Assembly (NCBI RefSeq): GCF_037975245.1
Contig: NC_092562.1
Span: 3,898,001-3,962,000, forward strand
From: Apostichopus japonicus
Lineage: Eukaryota > Echinodermata > Holothuroidea > Aspidochirotida > Stichopodidae
Length of the DNA stretch: 64,000 bases
Direction of reading: 5' to 3'
Below the pieces are notes generated by a model, which did no database searches, had not been told where the DNA came from, and saw only the letters and a program-made list of their open reading frames with translations. Each line of letters begins with the position of its first letter. Position 1 is the first letter of the stretch. This document shows positions 810 through 54,100 of the stretch, in pieces. The translations under genes and the position numbers were made by a program.

Positions 810-8663
<7,854 letters not shown>

Positions 8664-13440: not shown

Positions 13441-13528
13441 ATGATGGCTGCCGATATGGGTATTTATTATAAACTCCTCCCATCAGTGATGTGCTTTATC
13501 GTGGTGTGGCTTATTGGCAATGCGGAAG
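13441..13528 (+). other. Signal-peptide exon of the Tie-like receptor phosphatase
   Basis: Codes for about 29 residues: a short polar start ([11 protein letters not shown]), a hydrophobic core ([15 protein letters not shown]) and a small-residue end (NAEG), typical of a cleaved secretion signal. An acceptor (TCCTTTTCAG) ends at 13420, 20 bases before the ATG, so the 5' UTR is spliced and begins in an upstream exon not identified here. Confidence 0.8.
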
Positions 13529-16500
13529 GTACTGCTTTACATAAGAACTTTATAGGAAAAACCTGCCATAGAGCATTATCAAATTGACATATAATCCATT
13601 ATTTTAACTTGTAAAATCTTAATTTTCATTTTCTTGCAGGTAATGCTAAGAAACCGGGTTTTTCCAATAATTCTAAAATTACAATAATGCAACGGGTCGC
13701 TTAGAAAAAGGAATATTGACATTTGTATTGACACCCCACTAGCACTTTCTATCATTTGTTATTTTATTTTTAAACAAATCAAAGAGTAGGAAACGAAGTT
13801 TTTGTTGTTTTGTTTTTTCAGTTGTTTCAAATAATATTAAGAAATTTATTGTATCTTATGTTCGTCTTAGAGCCTATAAAAGTAACGTTACTAGCTGAGA
13901 GATACATGTACAGTGATAGCAGCAATAACTTAGGATACCAGTGCTACGTCAGTGATCCAAAACTAAATATTGAGACGGATGTCACCATGACGTCTACTAG
14001 ACATGTATGGACGAGAAACACTGAAAATCAGAATCCTGATCCTCCAGAAGCAGAATATTTTTATCATAAAGAGTGGCCAAGGTATAAAGTTTACTGGAAT
14101 AACTTTCAGATCACTGATGCATTCGGAGTATTTGATTGTACTGCTCAGGTCGCCGGGAAGAAAGACACGACAGTCTCACATATTCGTTTGAGATCAGATG
14201 GTAGGTGTAATAATCTTAAACGCGTGAAAGCGTTATTACTAGGGCGATAATGAAACTTTTTTTTTTGTTTAATAATGTTGAAGTGTAATTAGGAGCATAG
14301 CGAAAAAACATACTCATGAAGAAGAATTGCGGGAAACTTATCTTTGCGATGAAAATTGAAGAGGCTATAATGACAGTGTGAATTTCTCTTTTTCGATAGC
14401 TGATATCCTCCCAGTCAATGAGTTATTATCCCAGACATTTAATATCGGAGACACCGAGGTCAGCATCAATATGATGAGTCCGACTGGTGGGGATGTTTCT
14501 ACGTTTCGGTGGATGAAGGACAATGTATCGATATCATCAACAGACGGTTTATCTAACTACACCATCAGGAGACCTTTACAACTTGACGATGCAGGAGTGT
14601 TTGAATGTTACATTGATGGCGAGAGGAGCCAAGCCAAGCAAGCTTTGAATTTGCTTATTGTGCGAGGTGATTTTGTCTTAAACTATTACATAGCAATGTT
14701 AAATAATTTCAACCACAAAATTAGTCTTATTCTGCTTAGGTCTGCAGATGCATTACGCAAAAGATAAAACACAAGATTTAATTTTGCTATGTCTTTCAAA
14801 CAACTTGGAGCAGATTTTGTTCATTGAAATATCATATTCTGCTAATAAGTAGTTATTCTAAATCAGAAAATGGCTGTTTGTAGCTTCTTCGCAATTTATA
14901 GATCAATGGAAAATTACATAATTTCTGACTTTGTCAAGAAATGCATTAAGAAGTTATGCATTAACTAATAATGCATGAAAAAGAGGTAACGCATTAACAA
15001 AAAAGCAATGCATAAACAAAAAGCAATGAATGAACAAAAAGCAATGCATGAACAAAAAGCAATGCATGATTAAAGAGCAAAGAATGAACAAAAGTAATGC
15101 ATGAACGAGAAGCAACGAATTAACAAGAAGAAATGCAATAACAAGAAGTAATGCATTAACAACATCCAATGTATTAACGAGAAATAATGCATCAGGAAAT
15201 GCGTGAATCTGATCGGACATGGAATACCCTAATGTACACAAACTGTAACCACTCAATTAGTTTTTGGCTTTTGATCTACTTATTTATGTACACGAATAAG
15301 CCCTTTGTAAATTCCTTGTCTGCATAGTTGAAACCAAGTTCCATACAATTTTCTTTAAGGGTTTAGATATTTATAAATTTTGGTTATTAAATGCAAACAG
15401 CTATTTTAAAAGTATTATCAAGTAATGTACTGTTATGACGTAAATATCTGATCGAAGTATGCGATGTGTTTATTGCAGCCTGTCCAGCCACTCGTTGGGG
15501 TCCTCCTAACTGTACTGGTGTTTGCAACAGTTGCTACAATGGAGGAATCTGTGATGAAAACACCGGAAAATGTGTTTGTCCTCCGGGCTTCAAAGGGGGT
15601 GAATGTAAAGAAGGTACTAAATTCTCTTTCATTTTTGCGAAGTTTAATATGAAACTTAATCAGGCTATGCGCCTGTACCCAAAAATACACTCCATTTAAA
15701 TCATTAGTTCAAAAATCATGAATGAAGTTATGTAACATGAAATATTTCGATCCAAGCGAATCGCATGTGTATCCATGTCTGACTTCATCGTCGCACTCCG
15801 ATTACTGTTCTGTAGATTTGTTATCATAATTCTTCTTGATTGAGAACTGTAATTGTTATCTTGTTGTTTTGACGTCATACACGGTAACACATTGCTACCA
15901 AATGAAGGAAAATATCATCCCTATTTTGTAAATAAGATATGGCAGACGAAATGAGCGCATACATTCTGTGTGTAAAAAGTAAGAAGACAGTTTGATACAC
16001 TATAAATAACGTGTAGTCGTTTGAAAAAGCTATAGATAACCAACTAAATTCTTGCATGAGTACGTCCAATAAACTCAGTGACAGAATTAACTTCTGTAAG
16101 GTTGAATACCTGTGCTTCCTCATCTTAACCTCTGTTCATATGACGATAAAATAATCACAAAGGTCTTGGTAAGTTGACATTGAATATCATAATTCAGTTT
16201 GCAATGAGTAGGGGGGGGGGGGGGGGAATTACATTCAGAGAGGGTAAATTTCTCAAGCTTACAGTTACTACTTGAATCACGTCATCGGTTTCCTTTCAAT
16301 ATTTTGTCAGTATTACCTTTCATAACAGATTGATAAGTATTATAACCCTAACTTATATGTATTCGATTTTGCTACAGTTGCAATAATACCCTGCAAGTGA
16401 CAGTAAGGAGGCGTTTCAACGGCTTAAGTACAATATATGTTTGAAAAATGATTTATGTCGCATTAAAAGTCATTTTAATTCGATTTTTTCCTCGTTCTAG

Positions 16501-19500
16501 GTATGAGAGACTTACCTGTACAACCTTTTACACTTAGTCTAAACAAAAACAATTACAAGAATTCAAAGCAAGGGGGAGAAGGGCAAAATAAAAGAAGAAA
16601 TGAATTGTATGGAAAGTTGGTTGGGAAATTACATAGCAAACTTAAAGATACCGTTGCAGTGTTGCTACATACCAGTGGACGTCATGTTTATTTTAAATTA
16701 AATAGCAACGTAAAGTTGTTTACTTCACCAGTATGTATTTCTGTTACCGTATATCCTTGTCGCGTTCTAAATCCTCATAGAATGCGATTACAGCAGACGA
16801 AAGAAAAATGTTTATTCAACTGCATGATTAAGGCCTGAGTTTGATATTGAAGGGGCTACCGTTAAGTTAACGCTAGCCCTATATGTGAAATTATTTGTAA
16901 GGAATTTTGCGTGGCTTTTTGTATGTACTGATTATCAAGGAGATTTAATATTTTAACACCATTATCGATAACTTATACATTGTACTAAAACATTTCTCGA
17001 TGGTAGAAGTAAACTATAGCTGACACGAACAAACTGATTAATAGTACGTGGCTACTTTACTGAAGGACGAACGAACGAACATAGGCCTAACTACTAGCTC
17101 TTCATTCCAACAGCATGTGGCTTTAACAGTTTCGGGGATGACTGCGAATTCAAATGTTCAGCTACACATGAGCCTCAAAGGTGTGAAGGTAACTTATTCT
17201 GTCTCAGACATCCATTTGGCTGCAGATGTATAACTGGCTATAAAGGAATAGCGTGTAACGAAGGTATGAACCAATGACATCTTGTCGGCACTTTAAATAC
17301 GCTATGAAATCAACAAATTTAAACGTTTACTCTGCTTTCTCCACTTTCAAGCATATTTTGCAGAGTGAAGGAATGGCGTTGACGGATTATGATGACATAA
17401 TCTTTAAAAACACATTAGCAAACTGGGATTACCCTCACATAGTTATATTACACTACATCTCTGTTAATCTCTGTTAATCAGAGATAGATTTCTCTTATCT
17501 CTTTGGCAATCTCTATAGCTTCACACGATATTCTATCAGCACTACGGATCATATGAGGTTTGATTCATCTTTGGCATTAAAATGCAAACTGGTATCTTTT
17601 CACATGGTATATTATTACAGAAGCATGCACTTATTTTCTTTTTCGTTTGTTTTCCCTTTTCAAAGAGCTCTTTCATATTAGACTTAAAGCCACAGGTACT
17701 GCAAATACAACCTTTATTTATCTTGTTGGGACCTTTTTGTTTGTACAATAGAATGCGAGCCAGGAAAGTATGGAGCCAGCTGCTTACAAACCTGTAACTG
17801 TAACAGTAACCTTTGTAATAGGTTTACTGGAGAATGCACTGGTAAATGTTCTTTTAGACGAGCAGGAAGTAATTGTCAAGGTCAGTTGTTATTACAAAAG
17901 ATCCTTGGATGGACATGTATTTATTCTCTTATTCTCTACATACAGGGCAACTGACACACATCAGCTTATCTTTCTACAAGTGACTTCATGTGGCAATTGT
18001 GAAAATTAAGTCGTTAAAGTTAATGTGGAAATTAGGGAAATATTTCATTCAACTTTTTTGTTGACACAAAAAGCAAAGAATTGGTGATTTCAATCTTTCT
18101 GGTTTAATGATATTTTGTGGTAATTAGGTAAATAACGTTAACCGCTATTTTACATTACGGGGCATTGCTTCTCCTGATAAAAACCATCATCTGTGACTAA
18201 TTACTGCTGATTTGATTAATCGTGAAAAGATTTGCAAGTGATTCAAGTTTTTCACACAGCCAATTAAGAAATGATGTATGCAACGAAATCTTAAGGAAAC
18301 AGAATTATGTCTTTTGGAATTCACAGCTTTAATCAAATTTGCCAAATTTATTTTAACACATTTGCTTCTTTTCCTTTACTCTATAATAATATGTTTCTAT
18401 CGAAGAATGTGAAGGAATGTTCTATGGCTCAGATTGCTCTCAGAAGTGTCATTGTGTTAAAGAGAGGTGTAACCGAGAGTCTGGATTATGTCAGACGGGT
18501 GGATGTCTTCCTCAGTGGGTCGATCTATTTCCTCCATTTAGTTGTCAAACAGGTATTTGCCAGTCATTTATTTTGCGGGGTTGATTTTGAAGCTATCACT
18601 TTGTAATAAAAAGTAACAAATGCCAAACCACTCCCGCACTAACCCCCCCCCAACCTACAGCCCCTCCCCAACCCCTCGCACTCAACATCTCTCGCTCTCA
18701 CTCAAATTCATCAAGTCTTATTAAGGAATAATAATCGTGTCCATGCATGAACATTATTTATAATTCTACCCATTACTTAAATACCACTTACAGGTTCTGT
18801 GCATTTCTGAAAAATATAGTATGATAGATAAGTACCAATTCGTTTTTCAAGAAATTGAGATCTTTCTTTTATTACAACAAATAGGTTTGTCTGATAGCAC
18901 AATATACATAAAACAAAATCCCGGAATCCCAGGGAGGGTCACGTGCGTCGCTGTTGAAGGGCCTAGAGGAGATCTGGATAGCCTCGATCTGGTTGCAACA
19001 CGTGACCAACATGAGCTTATGGTGAACGGGATCGTCTCCGAAAGTTCAATTAATAAGGATTCAACAAACAGTCGGTCCAGGACCTTCATCATAACTAATG
19101 TCAGCGAAGGAGACAAGTTATACTGTCAGTTGAGAAAGAACGACCAAAATATGGCGATGTTCAAAGTTACTGTAGAAGTTTATGGTAAGGATTATTTGTA
19201 TTTCGTAACAAAGTTTCTCATCTAAGAATTACGTCACATTTTAAGTGCTCTTTTGTCGGTTTCTTAGATCTTCCGCTCCTGAAATCAAGTCCTGAAGTGG
19301 TATCGATATTTGGCCGTTCAGTAACGATCAGTTGGTCACCATGGGAAGGAGGAATTTATGATGGCGATGGACCAGTAGTGGGATACACTCTGTACTTTAG
19401 AGAGGATAAAGTAACTAAATGGTCAAAGTCTGGCTACGTCAGTGCATCTGAACCACGTGAATACATGTACACTAACTTGGAGCCAGAGACTAGCTACATG

Positions 19501-22500
19501 TTCAGTGTAGCAGCAGTTAGAGAAGGAGATGGAGGAGAGGGGCCCCGTGGACCATCTCTGAATGTCACTACACGTTGCAAAGGTGAGCGATTGAATATTC
19601 GATTTGCTATTTCAGTTAGGTAAGAAAAGATTCCTGTAAATGTTGATGTTAATTAACTTCCTCATTTTTCCAAACGTTCCTTACCGTCATCTCGTAAAAA
19701 CCCCTAATCCGAACAATAAACTATAAATATCACTTGAACCTTATCTTTTTTAGACAATTCCACACCCATCTCCCTCAAACATATACCAGTTACGGATACT
19801 TGGTTATTCCTGAATATTGTATATAGATCAATATCTCGCCACAAAAACTGTTCCCGAATTATTGTTTACTAAAACATCCAGTGACGATATTTTTCAATTT
19901 GTTGTTTATTCATTGCGTAATGCAGTGCCTCTAAGTCCAGTAAATCCATCAGCTACAATCGACGGCGAAAGTTTCACCGTGGTGATATCATGGAAGGTAT
20001 GTAACATGTAATATTCACGGTTTCCATATTTGACAAATACAGAAATGAAACAACTCTGACATGAACATATGCATTAAGCTGTTTTTACTCTACGCAATAT
20101 ACAAAAAGTTATGACTTAGTATTTTTGGCTGCTTCCTCGTGTTAAAAATGTTAAAACGACGTTATTTTCATTTACAATCATCATTTTCCTTTTTAACAAG
20201 TTACCACCTGTCACTTGCAGTTCTGGAGTGACACACCTTACTATCTACTATCGGTCTCGATCAACTGATGACGTTTTTAGCAGGATATCCATTAACGACA
20301 CATCTCTGACGTCATACAAATTCACTTCATTAGTACATGGTGTCGAACATGAGTTCTTTTTGAAATTAACAACCTCTGGAGGTGAGAGCCAAAAAAGTGA
20401 GAGAATTTCGGTGGGGATCGGTAAGTCATATTCCAAGAACTCTCTCTCATGAATTCACAAGTTATCAAAGTCATCAAATGTATCACGAACAATTTCAAGT
20501 TAAGCCATATCATCTCAGACTGGTAAATCTAGGTTGTGGAGAAGTTCTTTCTTACACAGGTTTCTATGTTTTCGTGGAACGAGATTGTATGTACTCACAC
20601 ATACCAAGACCTAAATCAAATTATTATAAAATTAAATGAACAAATAGAAATGTTTCATTCATTATCTATCAACAATATGATTCTCCTTGGTATTGATGTC
20701 AAGCTTAATCAATATGACCGTCTTTTGCATATTTTCTACGTCAATATGAAGATAACACCAAATCATGGCTGCCTATTGTTACGTCATCTCTTGGGGGCTG
20801 TCTTCTCTTAGTCTCCTTCATCTATTTGGGTGCAGTAATTCAAAGAAAAAGGTGAGCACTTCGCGAACAGCGTTACTTAACTTTAGTGACTTAACTATAG
20901 TACTTAACTATGGTAACTTAACTTGACTCGACTCGGCTCTACTCGACTTATCTTTAGTTAGTAGCAATGTTTCCTTCAAGAATCACCGTTATAGTACGAT
21001 TGATAAAAAAAATCGATTATTAACTGACATAATTTTACTACTACATGTTCTTTGATTCTGAAGTTTATCCCTAATAATTCGGCATAATATGAGTTCCATG
21101 TAACTTTTAGTTATCTCCACACTCCTCCACAGAAAAAAATGCTATAATTATCTTATTTAAATTCCATGCGTATAAATAGAGGATACATTGTATTATCATT
21201 TCCCTTCAAGATTTACATATTAGCAAATTGTGACTGTTACATTCAATCTTCATCTATACAATTACACATAAAAACTGAAATGTCAACCTGGTGTCCTTTC
21301 ATTTCTTGTCTCCTTACTGAACGTTCTGCCGTACTGTAGAAGACGGATCCGTGGAAATACTCCTAATATTGATTATGAAGGCACGAGCCCTCCCACTGAG
21401 AAAGGTAATTACAAAAGCAACGTTTCTTGAGTTCATACGTTTTGCCATTTATCAATGTCATGTCTCCTCACAGTTTGTTAAAATCATTTTTTTAAATTTG
21501 GTAAGTGGAGAAAAAAAAACCATGTTCAGTCCCTACTTTTCGATCTTCCCTTTTCATTCACTCTCTACATTTCTTACAATGACAAGATTCCTACTATAGT
21601 TGTTAACAAGAACCATCATTTGTGTATTGTTAAGATACAATAATCAGATTTTGAATTTCAAGCTTTCTGTGTATTTTACTATTCAACGCTTTGAAACAAT
21701 GGTTCAATGTGTAGTAGAGCCCACATCATTCTGTACCAATCTCACTCTCTATATTTCTAGGTGAATCTTCTCTTGAAACCTCCATTAGAGAAGAGAAAGT
21801 AGATCAGAAGATACCAGACACTGATCATGAGACTAATGACCAAGCTATTCCAGTGTATGATAACGTACAACAGCCAGCTCCTATACCTCTAACAGAATTA
21901 GCGAGATACATTACAAAATGTCAGAGCGGTGCAGTCGATACTTTCAATGAGCAGTTTATGGTACGATTTGATTATTGAAGTTTTCCTAATATAACAGTAG
22001 AAGGCATACCTGAAAGGATGTGTCTGAGTAGATTCAAAGATCCAGATATGTCAGTTCCCGAAACAAACCTACAGCGTTTTCTCGACAGTAATAGAAATAT
22101 GTGAGAGTTGCATATTTAAGTCAATTATCGAAATCATTTCAATTGGATCACATTGATCCCCTTAAATCTTAAAAAAAATTACCCTTATACAATTCAAAAG
22201 CTTTATCTTTCCTTAAAAGAGAGCATTTTTTGAAAATCCAACTAAACGCTTTGATTCGAAATATTTCCTTCCAGCTCCTGAGACAGGGAAAACAGTATCA
22301 GAGTGAAGTCGGTGAGAAAGTTGAAAACAAGGAAAAGAACAGATTCAAGAATATGTTACCATGTAAGTTACAGAGAACACTACTCCAAACCTTTCTTTCA
22401 GATACACGATGCACAAACGATGTGATAACAATCACATAATGAAATAACCACGAATGCCAATGTCATGTTAGCGCCATTGGCAATTTTCTTGTGAGTTCCC

Positions 22501-25500
22501 GTAAGGTAACAGATTTTTTATAGCTTGCTATTGGTTAAGCACGCATAGTGTCTATCCCGACTTATATTTAGCAGTACAATTGTAAAACAGTTTTATTTGA
22601 CTACCAGAGATCAACAATTCCATACTCGGTATGGCAAAAGAAACCGAAAATGAACTACTTGTATACTTCTGAAAGCAATCTATAAAAGTCTCAGTTATTC
22701 CGCTAGTTGATGGCAGTAATCTCTTCTTGCCATTAAGTAGTTTCTCTTTACATACTAAGCTTCACATGAACAGTGAAAATGTAACTTGATGACACGGTAA
22801 GTGGTCATTAGAAGAACACGATTGATGGCACATAGTGTGTTATTGTCTCTGACAGCCAATAAGATAACAATATCATTTTTCAACTATACATGATGCAATA
22901 CTATAGAATACTTCATAGTGTGAGTAAATCTAAACCTACCTGGCCTTTCCGATAATATTATAAGCTATGGCTTCATAAATTCATAGTTGGAATAATTCAA
23001 AAATACATTGACCCAGAATATTATCTAATGTAAGCTATTATAGAATTTGTTGACCCCAAATCCCGGTTACACCGGTATATTGACGGTTCGACACTCGATA
23101 TCACCATGGGTATAGTATCCTCAATGCACTTTTGTATGCTATTGTATGAAATATGCAATACCTCAACGTTAACATTTCCTCTTAGCTGTTTGTACAAAAT
23201 CTTATTCGATTTAAACTATACGTATATACTGCTACAGTAGTTGAGAACGAAATTTTCAGTGACTATTTATTTTCTATTGAATTTGAATCAGGACATTTGT
23301 GTTAGCAGACGGGCACTTAGTGAATGTAGCATTTTGTTTCCCCCAAATCTCGTTTGACTACTGCGTGTTATTGAACACAGAATTGTCTATACCTTTTAAT
23401 CTAGTAACCTTTGTACACTCCTTCATAACCTATTTATAACTTCATAACTATCTATGAGGAACTTCATTAAACATAAACAAGAGCAGCAAAAATAAATAAT
23501 TGACTGTATCGCATGACATGTATATATTTCTTCAATAATTATTTATTTACATTAATTCACTTTCGAAACGAAACTGAAATTTTATATAATGATTTATCCC
23601 AGGATAATTATATCCAAATAAAGTCTCTGGCTATGATTTCCTCTGCAGATGATCATTCCAGAGTAGTTTTGGAATCGTCCGGAGGTGATCCACATTCAGA
23701 CTACTATAATGCGAATTATATAACGGTATGAATACACAAATTATCGACTAGATATTTGTGAGAAATTTTTGAAAATTGATAATTTATAGTGACTTATAAT
23801 TAAAATAAGTAAAAACAACTGAAATTCTTTAGAACTTTTCTGGATGATCCTTTTATTTCTTGCGAGAGCAAGTGAAACATTCACAACATAGAATCTATCC
23901 TTTTTGTAAAGGTAAATCAACTATGTGTTAGCGTGTTGCATCACGATGTTTATAACTCGTTTTGCCTCTCTATCTCTTTCAGGGTCTATCTGGAAACAAA
24001 ACCTTCATAGCTTGCCAAGGTTAGTTTACGCATGGAAATATGTGAATTACTTCCCATTTTAAAACAGTGCTTAAAACTGACGTGAATCATTTTTACATAT
24101 AGTTCCTTCAGTTGCTATTGCATCCAGTTAAGCCGCATTAAGGATCCCGGAGCAAAACTAAAATAGGATATTGCATCAGCGATTATCCATTTCAAACATA
24201 GAATCCCTTTACTTATTAAATTTGAATTCGGTTAATCATGGAAGATTTGTCAATCTTTTCCAATAATCAGAGAGTACAAAACTAAACTATTATACTAATT
24301 ATACTAACTAATAACAAACAATATCAACCATGATCACAAGTTATCGATCATCACTTCCTTGTCACTGTTTTTTCTTCTTGTTTGTTCTTAATTTACAAAA
24401 AGGTCCAAATAAAGCTTCTCTAAACGACTTCTGGAGAATGATATGGCAAGAACACGTTCTAAATATTGTAATGTTAACAAACCTTGTTGAGCGAGGAAAA
24501 GTAAGTAATATTAACTGAAACAAGTGTAATCTACCGCCAGAAAATACCAATCTATTTCCCTCTTTTCAACTACCAAAAGTTCATCAGCATCAACCTAAAG
24601 TTTTCAAAAGCATATATTTTGGGGGCAATACTGATTGTTTTTTTTTAAACATGAGAGCGTTCAGAATCAATATCCTTCAAAACTTAAAGTAAACAAAGTT
24701 ATATATAAAACTCTTTCATACAGACCTTCCAACGTGTTGCATTTGTTTTTATTCCAAGGATCGCTGCTTGCAGTATTGGCCAAAAGTCGAAAAGAAAGGG
24801 CATTTTTTTGGTGAGATAAATGTTACCTGGCTGAAGTCCGAGAATGTAGCTGACTATACTACAAGATATATGACTGTTACATTGGTAGGCTACAACATTG
24901 TTTGGATACGGGTCCACATAATATGCAAATCGAATTACATATGCCATTGGTACTGACGTAAAAGCCAGTTCGTTTGGCGACATATGCTACCAAAAGTCGA
25001 GGCTAAGCCATGAACACCAAGATCAGTAAATTCAGCACCCTCCACATCCAGCGCGACGGTCTATTTGATTGTTTTTTTACTTCTTTCAAAATATCTTTGC
25101 CCTTATGGGTATGCCTACGATGGGATGCGGTGCTTCAGTAGTCCCCTGTCATTTATCGTTTTGTCATTGGTTAACCCAAAGTTACATAACATGTAATTTA
25201 TCCGACCCCATTATGATAACAAGAATTTGAAATGCTGAAGTCATGTCATCAATCACAGAGCGAATATAGTGTTTAACGATCATCATGACCTGAATATGTG
25301 GAACAAATTTCAATAGCTTGTATTTTTAATGTAAACCAAGTAAAAAGTGACTGACACATAGTTTGTATTGCTTAATGGAAAGATAATTTGTTTGTTTTCT
25401 TTGAAGGAGGAAGAAGTTCGAACTGTTCGGATCTTTCATTTCCTTACATGGCCTGATATGGACATACCCGAGCAGCCGACACCTCTGATATCTCTCACTA

Positions 25501-28500
25501 AACAAGTTAAGGCAGCACAAGAGAATGTTTCTGCCCCATTGGTTGTACACTGTAGGTAAGGTTAAACAACATTTCAAAGTAAAGAGGTAGACGCGTTTCC
25601 TTCAAGTTATAAATCCGTTTTTCGCTATACCGAGTAGGGAGGATGGATATCAATGTATACCATACGAGAAACCACGGTCTATTTCCTCTCCTCAAACATG
25701 GTGCTGATTACAATATAAGCATAACCAATAACAACATCAGTATTTAATATATGTATAGATTATTGCAATTATTTGGCCATTGACGAAATTTAACAATACA
25801 AACTAACAAGATATTTTGTGTCAATATGTATTTTCGCGCGGGTGTTATCAAACAGCAAAAAGATTTTATTTATTACTTTGCATTACATTATCAAACCTTT
25901 AATAATGTTGGGAGAATTTTGGGAGAGCATGCATTTTCAACTAGTCACCATTTCATTTAAACTGATACATTCAATGTTACATGTAACCACACACGAAGGA
26001 AGAATTCTCGTGGCATCACAATTTACGTATTGTCCCTCGTTTGATTGGCAATGTATTATTTTCAGTGATAGGTAGGTAGAGGACACCAATGATGATAAAT
26101 ACAATAAAATTTGCTATGAACATCTTGCACCTTTTTTTTTCATTCGTAGGGGCATACTTTTCTCTTGATTCTGAATCCTAATTCAATTTTCGTTTGGTTT
26201 TCCTTAATAGCGCAGGAGTAGGGAGAACAGGCACTTTTATTGGTTTGTACACCCTTGTAGACTTTCTTAGAAGATCTGAAACGATCGATGTATTTGGGTA
26301 CGTTCAGGAAATGCGTGAAAATAGAATTGATATGATCCAGAGACCGGTAAATATGAACAAATATGTCCTTCATCATTGATGTTTGAAAAAGACGGAACTT
26401 TATTAACCGTTGCAAAACATGTAGTTTTAGTTTTAGTGGCTGTTCCTAAGAAATCACTTTCATTGAAAAGTGGGAAGGAAGCTATATCGTAGTAAGACAC
26501 CTTTAAACTTCAGTTTAAGTGTTGTCACCAGGATTACATGGACACTGTGTTTAGCATCTGTACTGAAATGTATAATGAGAAGTCATTGCTGTCAAGAATT
26601 TTACATTGACACATAAGCGAACGTACTTTCTAAAAAAAAGTTCTATGATCTCAGTTTACAGAGTAAAAATGATCATGGTTTCACGGCCTTAAACGGTGTC
26701 CAATCAATGATGAATCGACAAAAGCGTGTATAAATATTATAATATACCATAACTTTGGCAGAATGTAGACCATTTCATCATACAGCTATGTTAATGTTTA
26801 GTCAAACTGTCAGCTGATAAGTACCGAAAACCATATACTTATTTTAGATGCAATTCATCGTAAACTTTACACGTGTTAATTGACCTCTTTTATGGCAGAC
26901 ACAATACGCGTTCTTGCATGAATGTCTGTTGGAGGAATACTTGACTGGTAAAACGTGGATTCCTAAAGAGAGTATGATCGCCTTGTCACTTGACCAAAAT
27001 AAGAAGAAAATAGTCAAACAGCTTAAGGTAAAGTATATTTGGGTTTCATATCATTTCTTCGTTCTGTCAAAAGTTAAATAAGATTGTACTTGAGTTATGT
27101 TATACTAACACTTGGATCTTGCATTTGCAGCAGTTAGATTTTAAGGTTGAAGTGACTTGAAGTTATAGTGAAGAAAAACCACAAAAAAATACGTGCAGAA
27201 GGTTTCATCCTGGTAAAGCAAATTGAGTTCAGTGCTCAGAAAATACAAAGTAGTTGTTACGTTAAACGCAGAAAGGGTAAATTCAGAAATCAAATTGTCA
27301 TTCATTATTGCAGAAGTGTAACTCCCACTAGCTCAAAAGAGTGACGATTGCTCTGGTGAAATCGGTAATGTTCTTTTCAAATCTGTTTCAGATCCATTCA
27401 AAACTCGATAATCGAGATAGGATTCACAAATCTAGTCCTCCGGCAGAACCTGACAGAGTTCGGTTTCCTGCTATCACCCCTGGTAACTATGTAGCCAATT
27501 TTTGACGACGTGGGTCAACATATATATGGTTTCACGTCAACTTATATTCATCTAGAAAGTAGTTTCACATTCTCAAAGGTTACCATATTTCATTCAATAA
27601 CATATACAGTCAACGAATTTGAGATTTGAATCATACTAGTCTTAGTTGTAAACAAGTTGGAAATTACATTAAATAGTTTATTGTGCTAACTTTCTATCAT
27701 CTACAGTTCTGAACAAAGGGCTTTGTAAAAAATAAATCCTTTCTGGAAAACGGCTAAAGCGATATTAAAGGTTGACTTATCACTGTTTGGACACATGGCT
27801 CTGGATCAGAATACAATTTTATGTACAATGTGAACCAACCTTGGTACAATATAACATATGCAGTTTCACAACTTAGCACAAGGTGCTACAATTACTGAAT
27901 TGCATCATATTCATTGTAACACATTATTTCTGTTCTATTCTCTCAAATGTAGTGTCAAAGAAACTCCTCTTCTTACAAAGTGTGGGGAAAATTAACACAG
28001 AAGGGTACATTAATGCGTTTACAGTTGATGTGAGTATTATGTGCCCGACTGAAGCAAAACGATACCAGTTTTCAAACATAAAGATAAGCGTTAACTTAAA
28101 AATACTATGTATATTTTGTAAAACCTTCGGAACATAAACTCAATACTAACCAACAGTGTAAGCCTTTAAATGTAATTGTGCATATAGAAGTTACACCATA
28201 GAGTTAGACCATAATTAAGTTGCAAATGTAGAAATTGGTTTGTCCAGTCAATATTTAACTTAACATGGAAATTTGCATCCCTCGAGTTACAAGTTTAAAC
28301 ACAACTGAAATTTTAACATGCAGTTGTACTAATTAGTCCTACAGTCGTCGTGAAGCATTTATTGTGACCCAGTCACCATTGCCGAACACAGTAGAAGACT
28401 TCTGGAGACTGATATTCGATTGGAAGTGCTCTCTTATTGTGATGCTGAACGAAATTGACCCGAATGATGAGGTAGTTAAATCTTAGTGGTCGCCATATGT

Positions 28501-30478
28501 TCAATTGTGCAACTTAATGTTAAGTGCAAACATTCTTAAACAGTGATTCATTCAGATTATACGTTGCGTAAAAGCAATTTTTTTGACACTCTGATTTCAT
28601 GTATAAAAGTCACACTTAAGGACATAGTTATATTGTCTGATCATTATTCTACCGTTAGGTTCTTCTACTCATCTCTTCATTTTTATTTCTTGTTTTGTTT
28701 CCTTTACTTTCCTTTATAAATATATATTGCTTTTGTAAAGGGAGATTGTTGTTAATTAAAGCATTGCTCCTTCAGGCCCCTCTTGATATTTGTGTACACA
28801 TAACATTGTCCCGCGGTTATCTTCGTGGAAGAAGACTCAAAATTTATAGTTAATGTTATAGGAACTGAATGATCGTGACTGTGCTAGAAGAAATTTCCAG
28901 TGATTGACTGCATTATGCAGAAATATAGAGAAACCAGGTGTCTAGGATCCTTGCAAACTGTACATTGCAAGAAACTACAGTTTTATTACAGCCCTCACTC
29001 CATGAGTGAAGTTTATGCGTCGCGAATAGTGATATTCTTGTGATTCATACGAAAAAAAAATTAAACGTCATTTGAATGTTCTATAAGATGAGGTATTTTA
29101 TTCTTTATGTATGAAATGATCCATAAATCGTACTCAATGTAACCTCTTGACAACTGAAGTTTACCTCAGTCTAACAAATTTCCTTTTCATAGACGTGTGT
29201 TCAGTACTGGCCAGATCGTAATACCGTGGACTATGGGTTTATGACGGTAGAGCTGTCAGACTCTAACGAACAAGATGGCTACTACTACACGCATTTCAAA
29301 GTTTCCCACATAGATTCACAGGTCAGTATACTGGAGGAATTGTATGACTCTGACCATCGGCCAATCTCAATTGCTACAAATTTGGTATCAAAGAATTCAT
29401 CCAAATATACAATGAACGCCCTTTAACCTGTTTAGACGTAGTATCCAATTCGTATACGGTACGATATGTATCATACTCCAATCAGTACTTTATTTAAATT
29501 TATATGAACCCATGTACCTATACTAATAAACTCCCTTTTCAATGTACTTTGAGTATTTTGTAACCCATCCTCCCCTGTCCTTCTTAAAAGAGGAACAATA
29601 AAATGATATCAAGCATTATTTTCAGTCACAATATATGGTGAAGAGATGCACACTCTTTTCTCTCATGCAAAGTATATCTATAGCCCAGATCAATATATCT
29701 GATATGAAGTGTTGTAGTGCTGATATAGGTGATATGATTAAAAACGTTGGTTGTTTCCATCAATATTTGGGTGATTGCTTAACCATACATCATTAATCAA
29801 TGAACGCCTCCTTGTCTCCAGGAAATGTAGAGCCAAACACAAAGTTCCTATCAATTTAAATTAAAGGAACTTATCAGTACTTGATGAAACAAAGAGGACG
29901 TAGCTATAATTCTAGTATGCTGAAAGATGTGCATGCATGATAACCTGATGTTATATTGGACAATTCTACCAGCATTCATATTTCTGTCATTTTTTTTTTT
30001 TTTTTTTTTGCTCTACCTGTAGAATCCGGTTAAAGTACACCATCTACAGGCTAAAGCTTGGGATAAGAAAGATCTGCCAGGATTATTGAATTTTATCGAT
30101 AAAGTTCAGAGTTTACAAGACAGGTACTGTTCAGATTCAAAAGCACTGGTTCACTGCATGTAAGTATAATGATATACAAAGAAATAACCATGTTTTATAT
30201 GCCGATACCATTCTTTTATTAAAAAGCTTCTAATTTAAAAGTATTAATTATTAAATAACAGAATCCCATGATACTATTTTGTTGTTCTTTTCTTTTCTTC
30301 TTTCACTTAGGAATAGTGTCGGTCGAAGTGGCGTCTTTCTGTGTGTTAAGTCGGAAATAGAGCGTGTGCAGACAGAACGACGTGTTGACATATTCAACAC
30401 TGTGAGGCAGCTCCGAGCCAGTAATCGTCATTTTGTTCAGTCAGGGGTAATTACTATTTGATATTTACTATTTGATAT

Positions 30479-30547
<69 letters not shown>

Positions 30548-31400
30548 GTGGTATCATTTAGTTGGTAACTTGATTAATTAACCCGTCACTTCTAATGCTT
30601 GTTTTGTCATGGTAAAATCGCATGATTTGAATTCATGGTACAGAAACCCAATCACCATTATTGACTACAGTAAAGATAACAGAGAATAAGATATTAATAA
30701 CACAGGTATAATGTTCCTATCAACACAAGCCAACATATGTGAAAAAGTCTATATACGACAACATCGAACAACATTTTCTGCATGTTTGTCGTTAATATTT
30801 ATTACTGTTATTTTCTGGCATGCGGATGACTACTGCACATGCTGAATCTAATACAGTTAAGCTCTTAACTTAGCGGGATGGCCATTGGAAAACATCATAC
30901 TTGATCATACCCTCATAGCCGGTTTTGAATATCATATTATCCAAATGTTTTGTACCAGCTACGAGTTTAATATGGATCAAGAATACGCTGTTTGCTACAT
31001 ATAGCTATTGTGTAATTTACCATACATTAATATACAAAGGTTGATTCGGGCCATCGTTTACCCGAAGTTCTATATCCAACCATAGTCTCTGTTCAGATTA
31101 AAATAAATCAAAAATGTATTTACTCTAGAGATTTCATACTGAGCTAAGTGTTGAACTGGGAGTTAAATGTTCCACCCGAACATAGTGTAGGCCAAATCGT
31201 GCTTTAAGAGCCCCTTCAGTCCCTTCCAAGCAGACATTTACAGCAACCATTATATGTCGATATGTTATTACTGGTTCTTCTTATTCATTTTTTCTTGTTA
31301 ACAGGAAGATTATATCCTATGTCATCAACTTCTGCAGCAATACTTATCCCCTTCTTCATTGACTGAGCCAGCTTTATATGCCAACATTACTCAACTATAA
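13441..31400 (+). CDS. Tie-like receptor tyrosine phosphatase: Ig-Ig-EGF(4)-Ig-FN3(2)-TM-PTP-PTP, 1385 aa
   Basis: Single-pass receptor phosphatase. Exons: 13441-13528, 13871-14200, 14400-14666, 15479-15613, 17114-17263, 17752-17880, 18406-18552, 18885-19184, 19268-19582, 19926-19996, 20201-20420, 20752-20851, 21340-21404, 21761-21960, 22275-22362, 23649-23725, 23983-24019, 24403-24500, 24759-24884, 25407-25555, 26211-26346, 26899-27027, 27392-27482, 27953-28029, 28337-28471, 29193-29321, 30023-30159, 30311-30446, 31305-31400 (4158 nt, no frame break). The first ATG of the exon beginning at 13421 opens a signal peptide (residues 1 to about 29); ATG ATG occurs in tandem. Ectodomain about 30-717, TM about 724-746, D1 about 840-1119, D2 about 1150-1354, tail to 1385. 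D1 keeps the KNRF..LPYDHSRV loop, WPD (Asp998) and [10 protein letters not shown] (Cys1030, Arg1036). D2 has Cys1308 but no WPD. Exon borders are hand-called, with uncertainty at 20201 and 25407. Confidence 0.9.
13871..19184 (+). other. Tie-like Ig/EGF ectodomain: Ig1, Ig2, EGF1-4, Ig3
   Basis: One exon per module, all bounded by phase-1 introns. Ig1 (13871-14200) has a Cys pair in YQCYV and VFDCTA. Ig2 (14400-14666) has [12 protein letters not shown] and ends LLIVR, like Tie2 Ig2 with its DAGVY and RLIVR; only one Ig cysteine remains. EGF1 (15479-15613) reads RWGPPNC and [12 protein letters not shown], close to Tie2 KWGPEC and CICPPGFMG. EGF2 (17114-17263) has [20 protein letters not shown], matching the unusual FCLPDPYGCSCATGWKG module of Tie2. 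EGF3 is 17752-17880. EGF4 (18406-18552, [11 protein letters not shown]) is extra relative to Tie2. Ig3 (18885-19184) has RVTCVAV and KLYCQL. Similarity was judged by eye from remembered Tie2. Confidence 0.85.
14945..15195. repeat. 18-bp-type minisatellite (AACAAAAAGCAATGCATG)
   Basis: About 13 imperfect copies of a unit close to AACAAAAAGCAATGCATG in the intron between the Ig2 and EGF1 exons. The reverse-strand reading frame over it gives a low-complexity Leu/Phe/His/Cys string and is not a gene. Confidence 0.9.
19268..20420 (+). other. Two FN3 domains of the Tie-like receptor phosphatase
   Basis: FN3-1 is one exon (19268-19582): [39 protein letters not shown] and GGEGPRG. The GDGP, LEPxTxY and GEGGEG-like blocks resemble the first Tie2 FN3. 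FN3-2 is split into 19926-19996 (ends VVISWK) and 20201-20420 ([21 protein letters not shown]). For the latter, the acceptor AACAAG before 20201 keeps the frame and gives SWKLPP, typical of an FN3 B-strand. The CAG at 20218-20220 would shift the frame to an early stop. Confidence 0.85.
20752..20851 (+). other. Transmembrane exon
   Basis: Codes for a short polar lead (DNTKSW), a hydrophobic segment of about 22 residues ([20 protein letters not shown]) and a basic stop-transfer end (QRKR, continued by RRIR in the next exon). This fixes the orientation: Ig/EGF/FN3 modules outside, PTP domains in the cytosol. Confidence 0.85.
23649..27027 (+). other. PTP domain D1, predicted active (main body)
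   Basis: Seven exons encode the D1 core. The pTyr loop is completed across 22362/23649 as LPYDHSRV. Next come [21 protein letters not shown], the WPD loop ([12 protein letters not shown]), the P-loop across 25555/26211 ([14 protein letters not shown]) and the Q-loop region [19 protein letters not shown]. All residues needed for the cysteinyl-phosphate mechanism are present. The segment between VTL at 24884 and EEEVR at 25407 is about 8-10 residues shorter than in typical RPTPs, so a small exon or a more 5' acceptor may have been missed. Confidence 0.88.
27392..30446 (+). other. PTP domain D2, probable pseudophosphatase
   Basis: Exons 27392-27482 to 30311-30446. Recognisable D2 blocks are [38 protein letters not shown] and [18 protein letters not shown]. 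The usual NRxxxxLPYDxxRV substrate loop is absent: [11 protein letters not shown] runs straight into the next block. The WPD loop is AWDKKDLP, lacking the general acid in its normal place. The P-loop is HCMNSVGRSG, keeping Cys and Arg but losing the Ala-Gly of HCSAGxGR. This fits the regulatory, inactive D2 common in RPTPs. Confidence 0.85.
30479..30544. repeat. (TA)n microsatellite
   Basis: About 65 bp of TA dinucleotide in the last intron of the Tie-like receptor phosphatase. Confidence 0.95.
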
Positions 31401-51100: not shown

Positions 51101-54100
51101 AAAATAATGAAACAACCAGCACTAGCAGCCCACCCCTCTCCCCCCACCTCTCCTCCAAATTATTGTAAATTTGCTGTTATATCAGTTAAAAAGTGAACCA
51201 AAAAGATAACAGCCAACTCACTCATATTCTTCAGTGATGTTTTCGCCAGTGGGACATCTCCGAGCTCAGGATACGGCCACGAAAAGTCTTCATGGAGTTT
51301 CTTGATTGCGGTCACAAAATCTTCAACTTTACCCACTCTGATACTGTACGAGCAAAACCAAAAAGTGCCAATTAATATCGTAATACGTCACAAAAACTCT
51401 GCCACTGCTTTTGGCATTCAACAACCTCTGTTCCTGCTCAATGATCCTCATACAACCATACCTTACTGTTTTCTCTTGTATCTTTTCTTTTGTTTGAGAG
51501 CAATTAAGACCGATGCCAAATTATAAAATTGATCGACTTCATAAGCACATAATAGTAAGGATATCATTTTACATGTAAATGAGTAACTGCAAACTCTAAA
51601 AATTGAAAACAAATTTCTAAATAAGTATTTTTTGGGCTAGAACGGGACCATATCTTAGCTACTGTTGCCAATCAGAAGACACGGTTCCTTGCTTACTGTT
51701 CAACATATTCATGAAATAAGTTGCAATTGACTAGTCCCACCTTAACATCACCACATTTAAAACAAAATGACAACATGATGTCCTTAGTTTACAATTTAGC
51801 CAAATTTTGTTTTATAAAAAAGAGTTCCAAACCAGTTGATATTTCCTGTATGATGTGTAAAAATTATTCAACAATTTTATTTTGAGTTCCTTGTGAGCTG
51901 TATATGATCCCTGAGCCTCTCCTCGTGCGTTATACAAAAGGAAATTGTTATACCCGGTTTTCAAGTACCTATACACATACATGCCAACACAAATGACAGA
52001 GCTTGGCTTCAAGAACCATCCAGCCTTTAAAGTTAAGCCCTTACAAGGAAACTCCTTTGCTCTCACCTCTCTTTCCTAAGCCACTCTGTCAGTTTGAAGT
52101 CAACATGAGCAGCAAACATGCCCAAGTCCCTGATTCTTTGGTTAGAGAAGAGTTTCCGTGCGTGTCTCTTCAAGATTATGTCCATGTAATACTCGTCCGC
52201 CGTTTGTTCATCTTCTTCGGGGATGGACATGGCCTGCTTCACGCTAGGCCTGAAACAAAAAAACAATCACTGAGTTGGTGACGGTATGTATCTGGATATG
52301 TAATTGGATGCCCAAAGACTAAAAGTTTCATCTACTTTACCTTTCAAATTGCATGTAAACAGATGTGTTTTTTTCGAATTCCTTTAAATGATAACAGGAA
52401 ACTTTCTAACATATTTGATCAAGTTTACTGAGAGGGTTTTCGTAACTGTCGAACATTTCATCCAGTCTATAAAAAAAGACGAATGCGAGAGGTGTTGACT
52501 ACTGACCTTTTGGGTTTAGGTCCATCGGGTTTGTCGACAGGTTTGTTAGGATTTGGATGAGGCGAGACGGGGTAGTAATAGTTGGGGTTGGGTACGGGCG
52601 GCGGAGTTCTCACTGGATCAACGTCCCCCGGCCCGATGGATCGCAGGAATCTCAAGATATCTCGACACAACTGCCACTCGCAATTCTCCAAGGCGGCATC
52701 CAACAGTAGAGTGGCATGCTGGTAAAATGAACAGAAGGAATGTCTTTGCAATCGGATGCGTCGGATTACATGGATGAAATTAGGGTATAAGACATAACTT
52801 AGATATTACAAATAAATACAAAAAAAGTGCATGTGTTAATAAATGTGTGACAGTTTACACACTTCTCACAGGTACCCAAATGGGATTATTAACTATTTTA
52901 CTTTCATTTACCTTTGAACCTTTGAACACACATACCAGTGCTATCGTGAAGAGGTGAAAAGGCAATGGCATTAGGAGCAACGAAACCAAAGCTCTAGGAA
53001 GTTATGAGGTTGGATGGCCGGCTGGCTTTGGGTTATTCATACAGGAGAAACCCACAATTTGCCAATCTGAAATGAACTTCCAAATTGTTAAAAATCCCAA
53101 AATGAGCTAAAACTGTAAATTGGATAGCTTCCTGGACTAGTTTAAGTTACTAGAGATTCAGCTTCTCCTGCATTCATACTGTGGCTGCTAAATAATAGCA
53201 CAAACTGAGCACCTTCCAGGCCCAATATTATTATAGCTTTTGACACTTTTTCTATTCTTGGGATGACGAGATTTCATAAACTTGAGTGATTTGATGAGAA
53301 TTAACTCACATGTCTGCTAACCCTGACCGTCTCCAAGTTTTGTATGATGATGAGATAAGAGGCCGCTGTGTGGAGAGAACCACTCGACAGACATTGCTGT
53401 ATGGAAGAAAGACGACAACAGAAATTAGGAAATAAATGACGAACGGAACAAAGATATGATGTACAGATCTACACAATGGAACAGTTCTTTGAGGTTATTT
53501 GTGTTCTTAAAAGAGCAAAGAATATATCATAGCTACTGCACTCTGCCAACTGAGTTATCCAGCCGTCACTTGGGTGGATATTCCTAATTCCCCGAAATCA
53601 TTGGGGGCGAGGGGTGGAGTGACAAAACCCACAGTATTATGCAAGGGGTGTAGTGACAAAACCCACAGTATTGTGCGAGAGGGGGAGCGACAAAACCCAC
53701 AGTAATGTGCAAGGGGTGGAGTATCAAACCCTCAGTATTGTGCAAGCAGTGGAGTGACAGAACCCACACTATTGTGCGAGGGGTGGAGTGACTTAACCCA
53801 CAGTATTGTGCATATACCATGTAATGAAATACAGTACACATGGAAGAGTGCTATTAAGAGCATTCAACCTACACTTTTATACGTTATCATATATTGTGCA
53901 TATGATTAGAAAGCTTTACCTCAAAGAGTTGTTGAGGACTGCCAACCGAGGCAAAGAGGTACCCCCAGAGAGCTATTTCAGTCTTTCTGGCACAATGGAC
54001 GACAGTTTCAAGATATTCTGGAAATTCTTGGATGAAAGCAATTACCCTGGGCAAGAGGGCATCTATGGGTATAAACAAAGAAAGAAAATAAAGCATATCC

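Follow-up and report, generated by a model that had tools for sequence, protein, structure and literature searches.

Introduction

Vertebrates carry the Tie2 sensor on one protein and its restraining phosphatase on another, and both are of medical interest. The Tie2 (TEK) ectodomain contains three EGF and three FN3 domains. VE-PTP (PTPRB) is described as acting on Tie2 in vertebrates (PMC10815196) and combines an FN3-type ectodomain with a single protein tyrosine phosphatase (PTP) domain (PMC5336234), and SpTie1/2, an invertebrate Tie ortholog, is described as a receptor tyrosine kinase (PMC12113024). Here, we examine a receptor gene in a 64-kb window of the Apostichopus japonicus genome (NC_092562.1, chromosome C2; C2:3898001-3962000). 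This gene, which we call copy D, ends a tandem series of four copies found via their second Ig domain (Ig2). Its Tie-type sensor sits on a phosphatase, and it shares its chromosome with Tie kinase genes and has many paralogs.

Copy D resembles Tie2/TEK and SpTie1/2 in its Ig-Ig-EGF-Ig-FN3 ectodomain, EGF2 hallmark, module order, and single transmembrane (TM) helix, but its output is a tandem PTP instead of a kinase. With the R4 (PTPRA/PTPRE) and R2A (LAR/PTPRS) receptor PTPs (RPTPs), it shares tandem PTP domains, an active-looking first domain (D1), and a degenerate second domain (D2). Its ectodomain is unlike that of PTPRA, which is short, and unlike that of LAR, which has Ig and FN3 domains without EGF domains or a Tie block. 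VE-PTP is a receptor phosphatase too, but the tandem PTP domains and Tie-type ectodomain of copy D set it apart from the R3 (VE-PTP) subtype, which combines a single PTP domain with an FN3-only ectodomain. A Tie ectodomain on a phosphatase is not described in the passages covered of the open-licence literature (PMC11788884, PMC10815196, PMC12113024, PMC8870065, PMC5336234), a scope outside which the sea urchin phosphatase survey of Byrum et al. (2006) falls.

Results and discussion

Gene structure

Judged from its sequence, copy D is very probably one gene that encodes a type I receptor tyrosine phosphatase, Tie-homologous outside the cell and an RPTP of the PTPRA/LAR kind inside, with D1 predicted to be active and D2 dead, and a member of a large family. 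The model was rebuilt from open frames and splice sites, and the final version was hand-curated. A 58-exon model from automatic exon chaining was an over-prediction and was replaced by the curated model, which has 29 exons (13441-31400 of the window, forward strand; Table 1). All introns are GT-AG with consistent phases, and the product of 1380 amino acids ends in a single terminal stop. Its layout is a signal peptide, Ig-Ig-EGF4-Ig-FN3(2), one TM helix, and tandem PTP domains. The initial annotation had proposed one unbroken 29-exon frame in which a Tie-type ectodomain is joined to tandem PTP domains, and the rebuilt model, Pfam, and the match to Tie2 (1.1e-51) bear this out.

Pfam recognized two PTP domains (PF00102, Y_phosphatase, 1.1e-129) and two fn3 domains (6.3e-16). 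Its EGF matches lay under the curated cut-offs. Because it lists no Ig family, the Ig calls rest on the Tie2 alignment and a family profile. Among the features expected of an RPTP, the CX5R and WPD motifs are present in D1, and the signal peptide and TM helix were recognized by inspection only. Ectodomain exons 2-9 are in phase 1-1 throughout, which is the expectation for shuffled extracellular modules. Alternative acceptors exist for exons 8 and 15.

A Tie-type ectodomain

Residues 30-728 of copy D were most similar to Tie2 among PDB sequences (1.1e-51 and 3.3e-46). The alignment spans Ig1 to EGF3, and the stronger match adds an FN3 stretch. The remaining PDB matches were to FN3 or single modules, with titin reaching 3.4e-27 by summing several FN3 stretches. 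The four EGF domains alone scored 107.6 bits against Tie2 and 32.6 bits against the next protein, a lead of 75 bits. A best match to a non-Tie family, which the initial annotation had named as contrary evidence, was not seen; Tie2 came first, and SCARF1, the multi-EGF comparator in PDB, was far lower on the EGF block (29.5 bits), so an ectodomain of MEGF/SCARF type was rejected.

The second Ig domain gave a similar picture at the profile level. A profile of seven family Ig2 domains matched a Tie Ig2 profile, built from human Tie2 and two Tie kinases of the same genome, with a probability of 93.4 (E 2.4e-7), and matched human Tie2 Ig2 alone with a probability of 29.3 (E 5.8e-4), compared with 3.9 and 0.3 for two control Ig domains. 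Copy D thus has the Ig2-EGF1-EGF2-EGF3 head of the Tie family. It does not have the cytoplasmic kinase, its tail being a tandem PTP; the Tie kinases are separate genes. The module order is the same as in Tie2, as initially noted, but the domain numbers differ, with four EGF and two FN3 domains in copy D. The sequence blocks that had been quoted as diagnostic of Tie2 stood up in part, namely for the EGF block and the Ig2 profile, but not for Ig1 and Ig2 as a single sequence or for the region from the third Ig domain (Ig3) to FN3-1. By homology, then, the Tie identity of the ectodomain rests on the EGF block, Ig2, and module order.

The phosphatase half

The cytoplasmic half of copy D matched PTPRA best among PDB sequences (411 bits), followed by LAR (399 and 393), PTPRS (392, 388, and 386), and PTPRE (384), and the best PTPRB chain reached 205.5 bits. 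D2 alone, compared with single-domain entries, was nearest PTPRA (148 bits), then PTPRE (131 and 130) and PTPRD (126). PTPRA was therefore top both overall and for the single D2, while LAR D1 (237.1 bits) was slightly above PTPRA D1 (230.6 bits). These similarities place the inner part with RPTPs of the PTPRA/LAR kind. The initial annotation had pointed to VE-PTP as the phosphatase that opposes Tie2 in vertebrates; the PTP half of copy D is nearest PTPRA/LAR, not VE-PTP.

D1 keeps the catalytic residues and Q-loop, with KNRF replacing KNRY in the phosphotyrosine loop, and is predicted to be active. D2 keeps the CX5R motif, has lost other motifs (Table 1), and is predicted to be dead. The C-termini of copies C and D carry a YAN motif, which recalls the C-terminal YAN motif of PTPRA.

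Tandem copy C

Copy C (C2:3884577-3906660) extends from exon 1 to D2, spans the left window edge, and starts ~27 kb upstream of copy D. It contains counterparts to 28 of the 29 copy D exons in the same order, the exception being the short exon 13, for which no credible match was found. Between the two copies, the ratio of nonsynonymous to synonymous substitution rates (dN/dS) came to 0.24 over the 584 codons of the PTP half and 0.53 over the 687 codons of the ectodomain. Fisher tests of synonymous against nonsynonymous change showed that synonymous change was in relative excess both in D1 (p=4.4e-15) and in D2 (p=1.2e-11). The PTP half is under purifying selection. Synonymous divergence was mosaic, with low dS in Ig1 (0.041), EGF4 (0.037), and FN3-1 (0.034) and high dS in Ig3 (0.44) and FN3-2 (0.80), and the low-dS tracts suggest exchange between copies. 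Positive selection on the ectodomain was considered and dropped, as dN exceeded dS without significance in Ig1 (p 0.225) and FN3-1 (p 0.375), and the pooled low-dS tracts gave p 0.194.

A large gene family

The gene is no lone oddity, as a search of the genome (671.58 Mb in 35 contigs) showed. An Ig2 query returned 55 matches, with all 63 candidates scored, and 50 loci remained after five with E>0.01 were dropped. These Tie-type Ig2 loci were distributed across C2 (34), C16 (13), C19 (2), and C6 (1). At least 36 of the 50 had a same-strand PTP match that lay downstream by no more than 60 kb and preceded the next Ig2, compared with antisense matches at two loci downstream and four upstream. At least 20 of the 28 loci with E<=1e-12 were PTP-linked. 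These counts are lower bounds, as the PTP matches considered were the best 150 of 548 and the best 147 of 369 candidates, and one locus, at C2:2.64 Mb, was missed by the Ig2 list. Tracing from head to PTP covered four loci, namely copies C and D throughout, a gene at C2:26.65 Mb from Ig1 through D1, and a gene at C16:20.13-20.10 Mb. The best explanation for this large family is that it arose by exon shuffling and tandem duplication.

Further clusters of PTP exons were seen at C2:28-31 Mb, where no Tie-type Ig2 was matched at E<=0.01, and clusters of kinase exons were seen on C17-C19 and C21.

Tie kinases on the same chromosome

With the human Tie2 kinase as query, we found two multi-exon genes on C2 (~2.48 and ~2.54 Mb), whose matched stretches were 43%-74% identical. 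We note that longer, lower-identity kinase matches exist elsewhere (e.g., at C2:22.34 Mb, 39%, 3.2e-50), so these genes are assigned as Tie kinases by exon identity and by the ectodomain. Each has Tie-type Ig2, EGF1, EGF2, EGF3, and FN3 exons upstream. A tree of 11 Ig2-EGF1-EGF2 heads, built without an outgroup, placed the local Tie kinases with human Tie2 (98.4/100) and separated them from the remaining eight heads. Its three groups are human Tie2, the local Tie kinases, and the rest, and without an outgroup it dates neither the split nor the fusion. An Ig2 cysteine kept in copy D (DAGVFEC) and the other heads is absent from human Tie2 and the local Tie kinases (DAGVYSA, DAGIYYA), a hint that the split between the two head types predates that between the human and local Tie genes.

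Sensor and enzymes are close on this chromosome. Of the 50 Tie-type Ig2 loci, 34 are on C2 together with the two Tie kinase genes, and the C2:2.64 Mb locus, which has matches to a Tie-type EGF head, FN3, and PTP, is ~80 kb from the second kinase gene. The presence of the sensor and both enzymes as neighbors on C2 suits local exon shuffling.

Tie-type heads with other tails

The array of C and D also holds copies A and B, which share the head (Ig2 88%, EGF1 91%-93% identity). In copy A, the head is followed by the TM segment LPVYGAVAVLLVVVFITGCVIIK, which is 90% identical in copy B, and by a tyrosine-rich stretch that is 91.5% identical between the two copies. This stretch contains CYEIP and YEAYTYSNV motifs in both copies and YYNYTP in copy A. 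Queries with the FN3 and PTP parts of copy D gave no match after copy A and two weak antisense matches after copy B, so that neither FN3 nor PTP was found with these queries on the coding strand after either copy. We infer that the tyrosine-rich stretch is spliced to the head, in which case one array would hold like heads with differing tails in copies A and B versus C and D.

The single C16 gene considered, one of 13 C16 members, has a Tie-type head and a single D2-like PTP (Pfam 5.9e-45, joined pieces) in which CX5R is present and WPD absent, with YENV and YQN motifs in its juxtamembrane segment. The C6 gene continues from its head into a Sushi domain; the 40 kb covered gave no PTP match, and neither an HRD nor a DFG kinase motif followed the head. 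A CUB domain first read after the Sushi domain was dropped, as Pfam lists none. For the head at C2:4.68 Mb, neither a kinase nor a PTP was recognized in the following 20 kb. We read these cases as a Tie-type sensor that may have been shuffled among several outputs, resembling paired receptors.

Alternative explanations

Several observations count against a Tie-type receptor phosphatase encoded by one gene. The copy D model was drawn from genomic sequence alone, and the acceptors of exons 12, 18, and 25 score below the scan threshold of 2; counterparts of all three exons are present in copy C. Since tandem arrays also favor model chimeras, copy D could be a chimera of assembly or model, or two adjacent genes, with a Tie-like receptor beside an unrelated RPTP. 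Linkage in the family is incomplete, as 14 of the 50 Ig2 loci have no linked PTP among the matches listed (including copies A and B, the C6 gene, and the C2:4.68 Mb locus), and a same-strand PTP is also found upstream of 27 of the 50, which we attribute to the tandem arrays and which makes direction alone a weak control. However, the junction exons (FN3-2, TM, juxtamembrane, and D1) are ordered alike in copy C, bar exon 13; just 1.4 kb separates the TM exon from D1; and the separate gene at C2:26.65 Mb runs from Ig1 to D1 inside 30 kb. Because copy C repeats the layout, the PTP half has a dN/dS of 0.24, and at least 36 of the 50 Ig2 loci are PTP-linked, we regard a chimera or two-gene origin as highly improbable. 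Alternatively, copy D could be a generic receptor phosphatase of Ig-EGF-FN3 layout that resembles Tie through convergence of common modules. Parts of its ectodomain are not Tie-specific on their own: Ig1 and Ig2 as a single sequence matched Tie2 at E 0.031, behind contactin-5 (7.5e-7) and DSCAM; the Ig1 profile comparison with Tie was not significant (1.7 and 3.5); and the Ig3-FN3-1 region ranked titin, Dscam, and others over Tie2, the FN3 domains not being diagnostic. Against convergence stand the 75-bit margin of the EGF block over the next PDB protein, the Ig2 profile match with its low controls, a module order that is the same as in Tie, and EGF1-EGF2 blocks common to the genome's own Tie kinases, and we consider this explanation unlikely. 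A final reservation concerns activity, in that most active PTPs carry KNRY and the D1 loop reads KNRF.

A wider reading is that the family forms a system like that of vertebrate immune paired receptors. One Tie-type sensor family would be coupled to an active PTP, a pseudo-PTP, a tyrosine-motif tail, and, separately, the Tie kinases, and these outputs would be balanced against one another within the same cells, possibly coelomocytes. KIR, LILR, and SIRP genes likewise form tandem arrays with similar ectodomains on different cytoplasmic tails, but their tails carry immunoreceptor tyrosine-based inhibitory motifs (ITIMs) or are adaptor-coupled, and the copy D tail is itself a phosphatase. This reading fits copies A and B, whose shared head precedes a TM segment and tyrosine-rich stretch in the same array, as well as the D2-like PTP without WPD in the C16 member and the exchange suggested by low-dS tracts in Ig1, EGF4, and FN3-1. 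Additionally, a title cited in PMC12113024 (reference [81]) places expression of a sea urchin Tie in coelomocytes. Against it, the joining of the A and B tails to their heads is presumed, and the dN/dS values above 1 in Ig1 and FN3-1 are not significant, so we put this reading forward tentatively. It is conceivable, if short of likely, that in a deuterostome the angiopoietin-receptor ectodomain has become a multigene recognition system spanning dozens of loci, whose outputs (kinase, phosphatase, pseudophosphatase, and tyrosine motif) are organized and exchanged as in immune paired receptors. If true, Tie-type sensing would be older in receptor diversification, perhaps in immunity, than in blood vessels.

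Proposed mechanism

In the mechanism that we consider most likely for copy D as a single-gene receptor phosphatase, the Ig2-EGF head would bind a fibrinogen-domain (angiopoietin-like) ligand or a cell-surface partner, and receptor clustering or displacement would then shift where D1 acts. Conserved tyrosines (YDNV in the juxtamembrane segment and YAN at the C-terminus) would recruit SH2 adaptors. The receptor would either oppose Tie kinases or activate Src-type kinases. As the initial annotation suggested, the same ligand class could possibly have an opposite output through copy D. The sign of this output could go either way, because phosphatases of the RPTP-alpha type can also activate Src-family kinases. 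The system lets one ask directly whether cells read a given class of ligand by phosphorylation, by dephosphorylation, or by docking, and the family offers a natural series with the same ectodomain on differing tails.

Table 1. Features of copy D and related loci. Positions without a prefix are those of the window; C2, C6, and C16 denote chromosome positions.
Feature	Position	Strand	Basis or remark
Exon 1, start codon and signal peptide	13441..13528	+	Signal peptide predicted from hydrophobic N-terminus
Exon 2, Ig1	13871..14200	+	Inside Tie2 alignment (query 52-336 onto Tie2 43-318)
Exon 3, Ig2	14400..14666	+	Family profile versus Tie Ig2 profile
Exon 4, EGF1	15479..15613	+	Tie2 match of EGF block
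Exon 5, EGF2, FCLxxPxGCxCxTGxxG block	17114..17263	+	Block common to Tie2 and the genome's own Tie kinases
Exon 6, EGF3	17752..17880	+	Model and EGF-block match
Exon 7, EGF4	18406..18552	+	97.9% identical to copy C
Exon 8, third Ig-like domain	18852..19184	+	Position and pattern; acceptor uncertain
Exon 9, FN3-1	19268..19582	+	Pfam fn3
Exons 10-11, FN3-2	19926-19996, 20201-20420	+	Model and Pfam
Exon 12, TM helix	20752..20851	+	Homologous TM exon in copy C
Exons 13-14, juxtamembrane segment	21340-21404, 21761-21960	+	Juxtamembrane motif also in copy C
Exons 15-22, PTP domain D1 with Q-loop, predicted active	22275..27027	+	Model, Pfam, and PDB matches
Exons 23-29, PTP domain D2 and C-terminus, predicted inactive	27392..31400	+	HCMNSVGRSG; WDK for WPD; KNRY lost
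Copy C, PTP exons 16-29	812..8660	+	Most exons 78-92% identical to copy D
Copy C, ectodomain, TM, and first PTP exons	C2:3884577-3897871		Left of the window
Copies A and B (starts C2:3843559 and 3858912)	C2:3843559-3864951		Ig-Ig-EGF-Ig head, TM, tyrosine-rich stretch
Two Tie receptor kinase genes	C2:2456703-2486000 and 2539001-2564462		Opposite orientation
Tie-type head and PTP locus	C2:2643706-2660568	-	EGF1-EGF4, FN3, and PTP matches; Ig2 weak, E 0.016
Tie-type Ig2-EGF head	C2:4683545-4686288		No recognized output
C16 gene, Tie-type head and single PTP	C16:20103796-20128146	-	One of 13 C16 Ig2 loci
C6 gene, Tie-type Ig-Ig-EGF-Ig head, then Sushi domain	C6:16374994-16384588		Sushi by Pfam (7.8e-10)

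Downstream of copy D, the window also contains part of a RIC1-like gene on the reverse strand (52470-52805), with a Pfam RIC1 match (2.2e-6) of 27.8 bits against a cut-off of 27.

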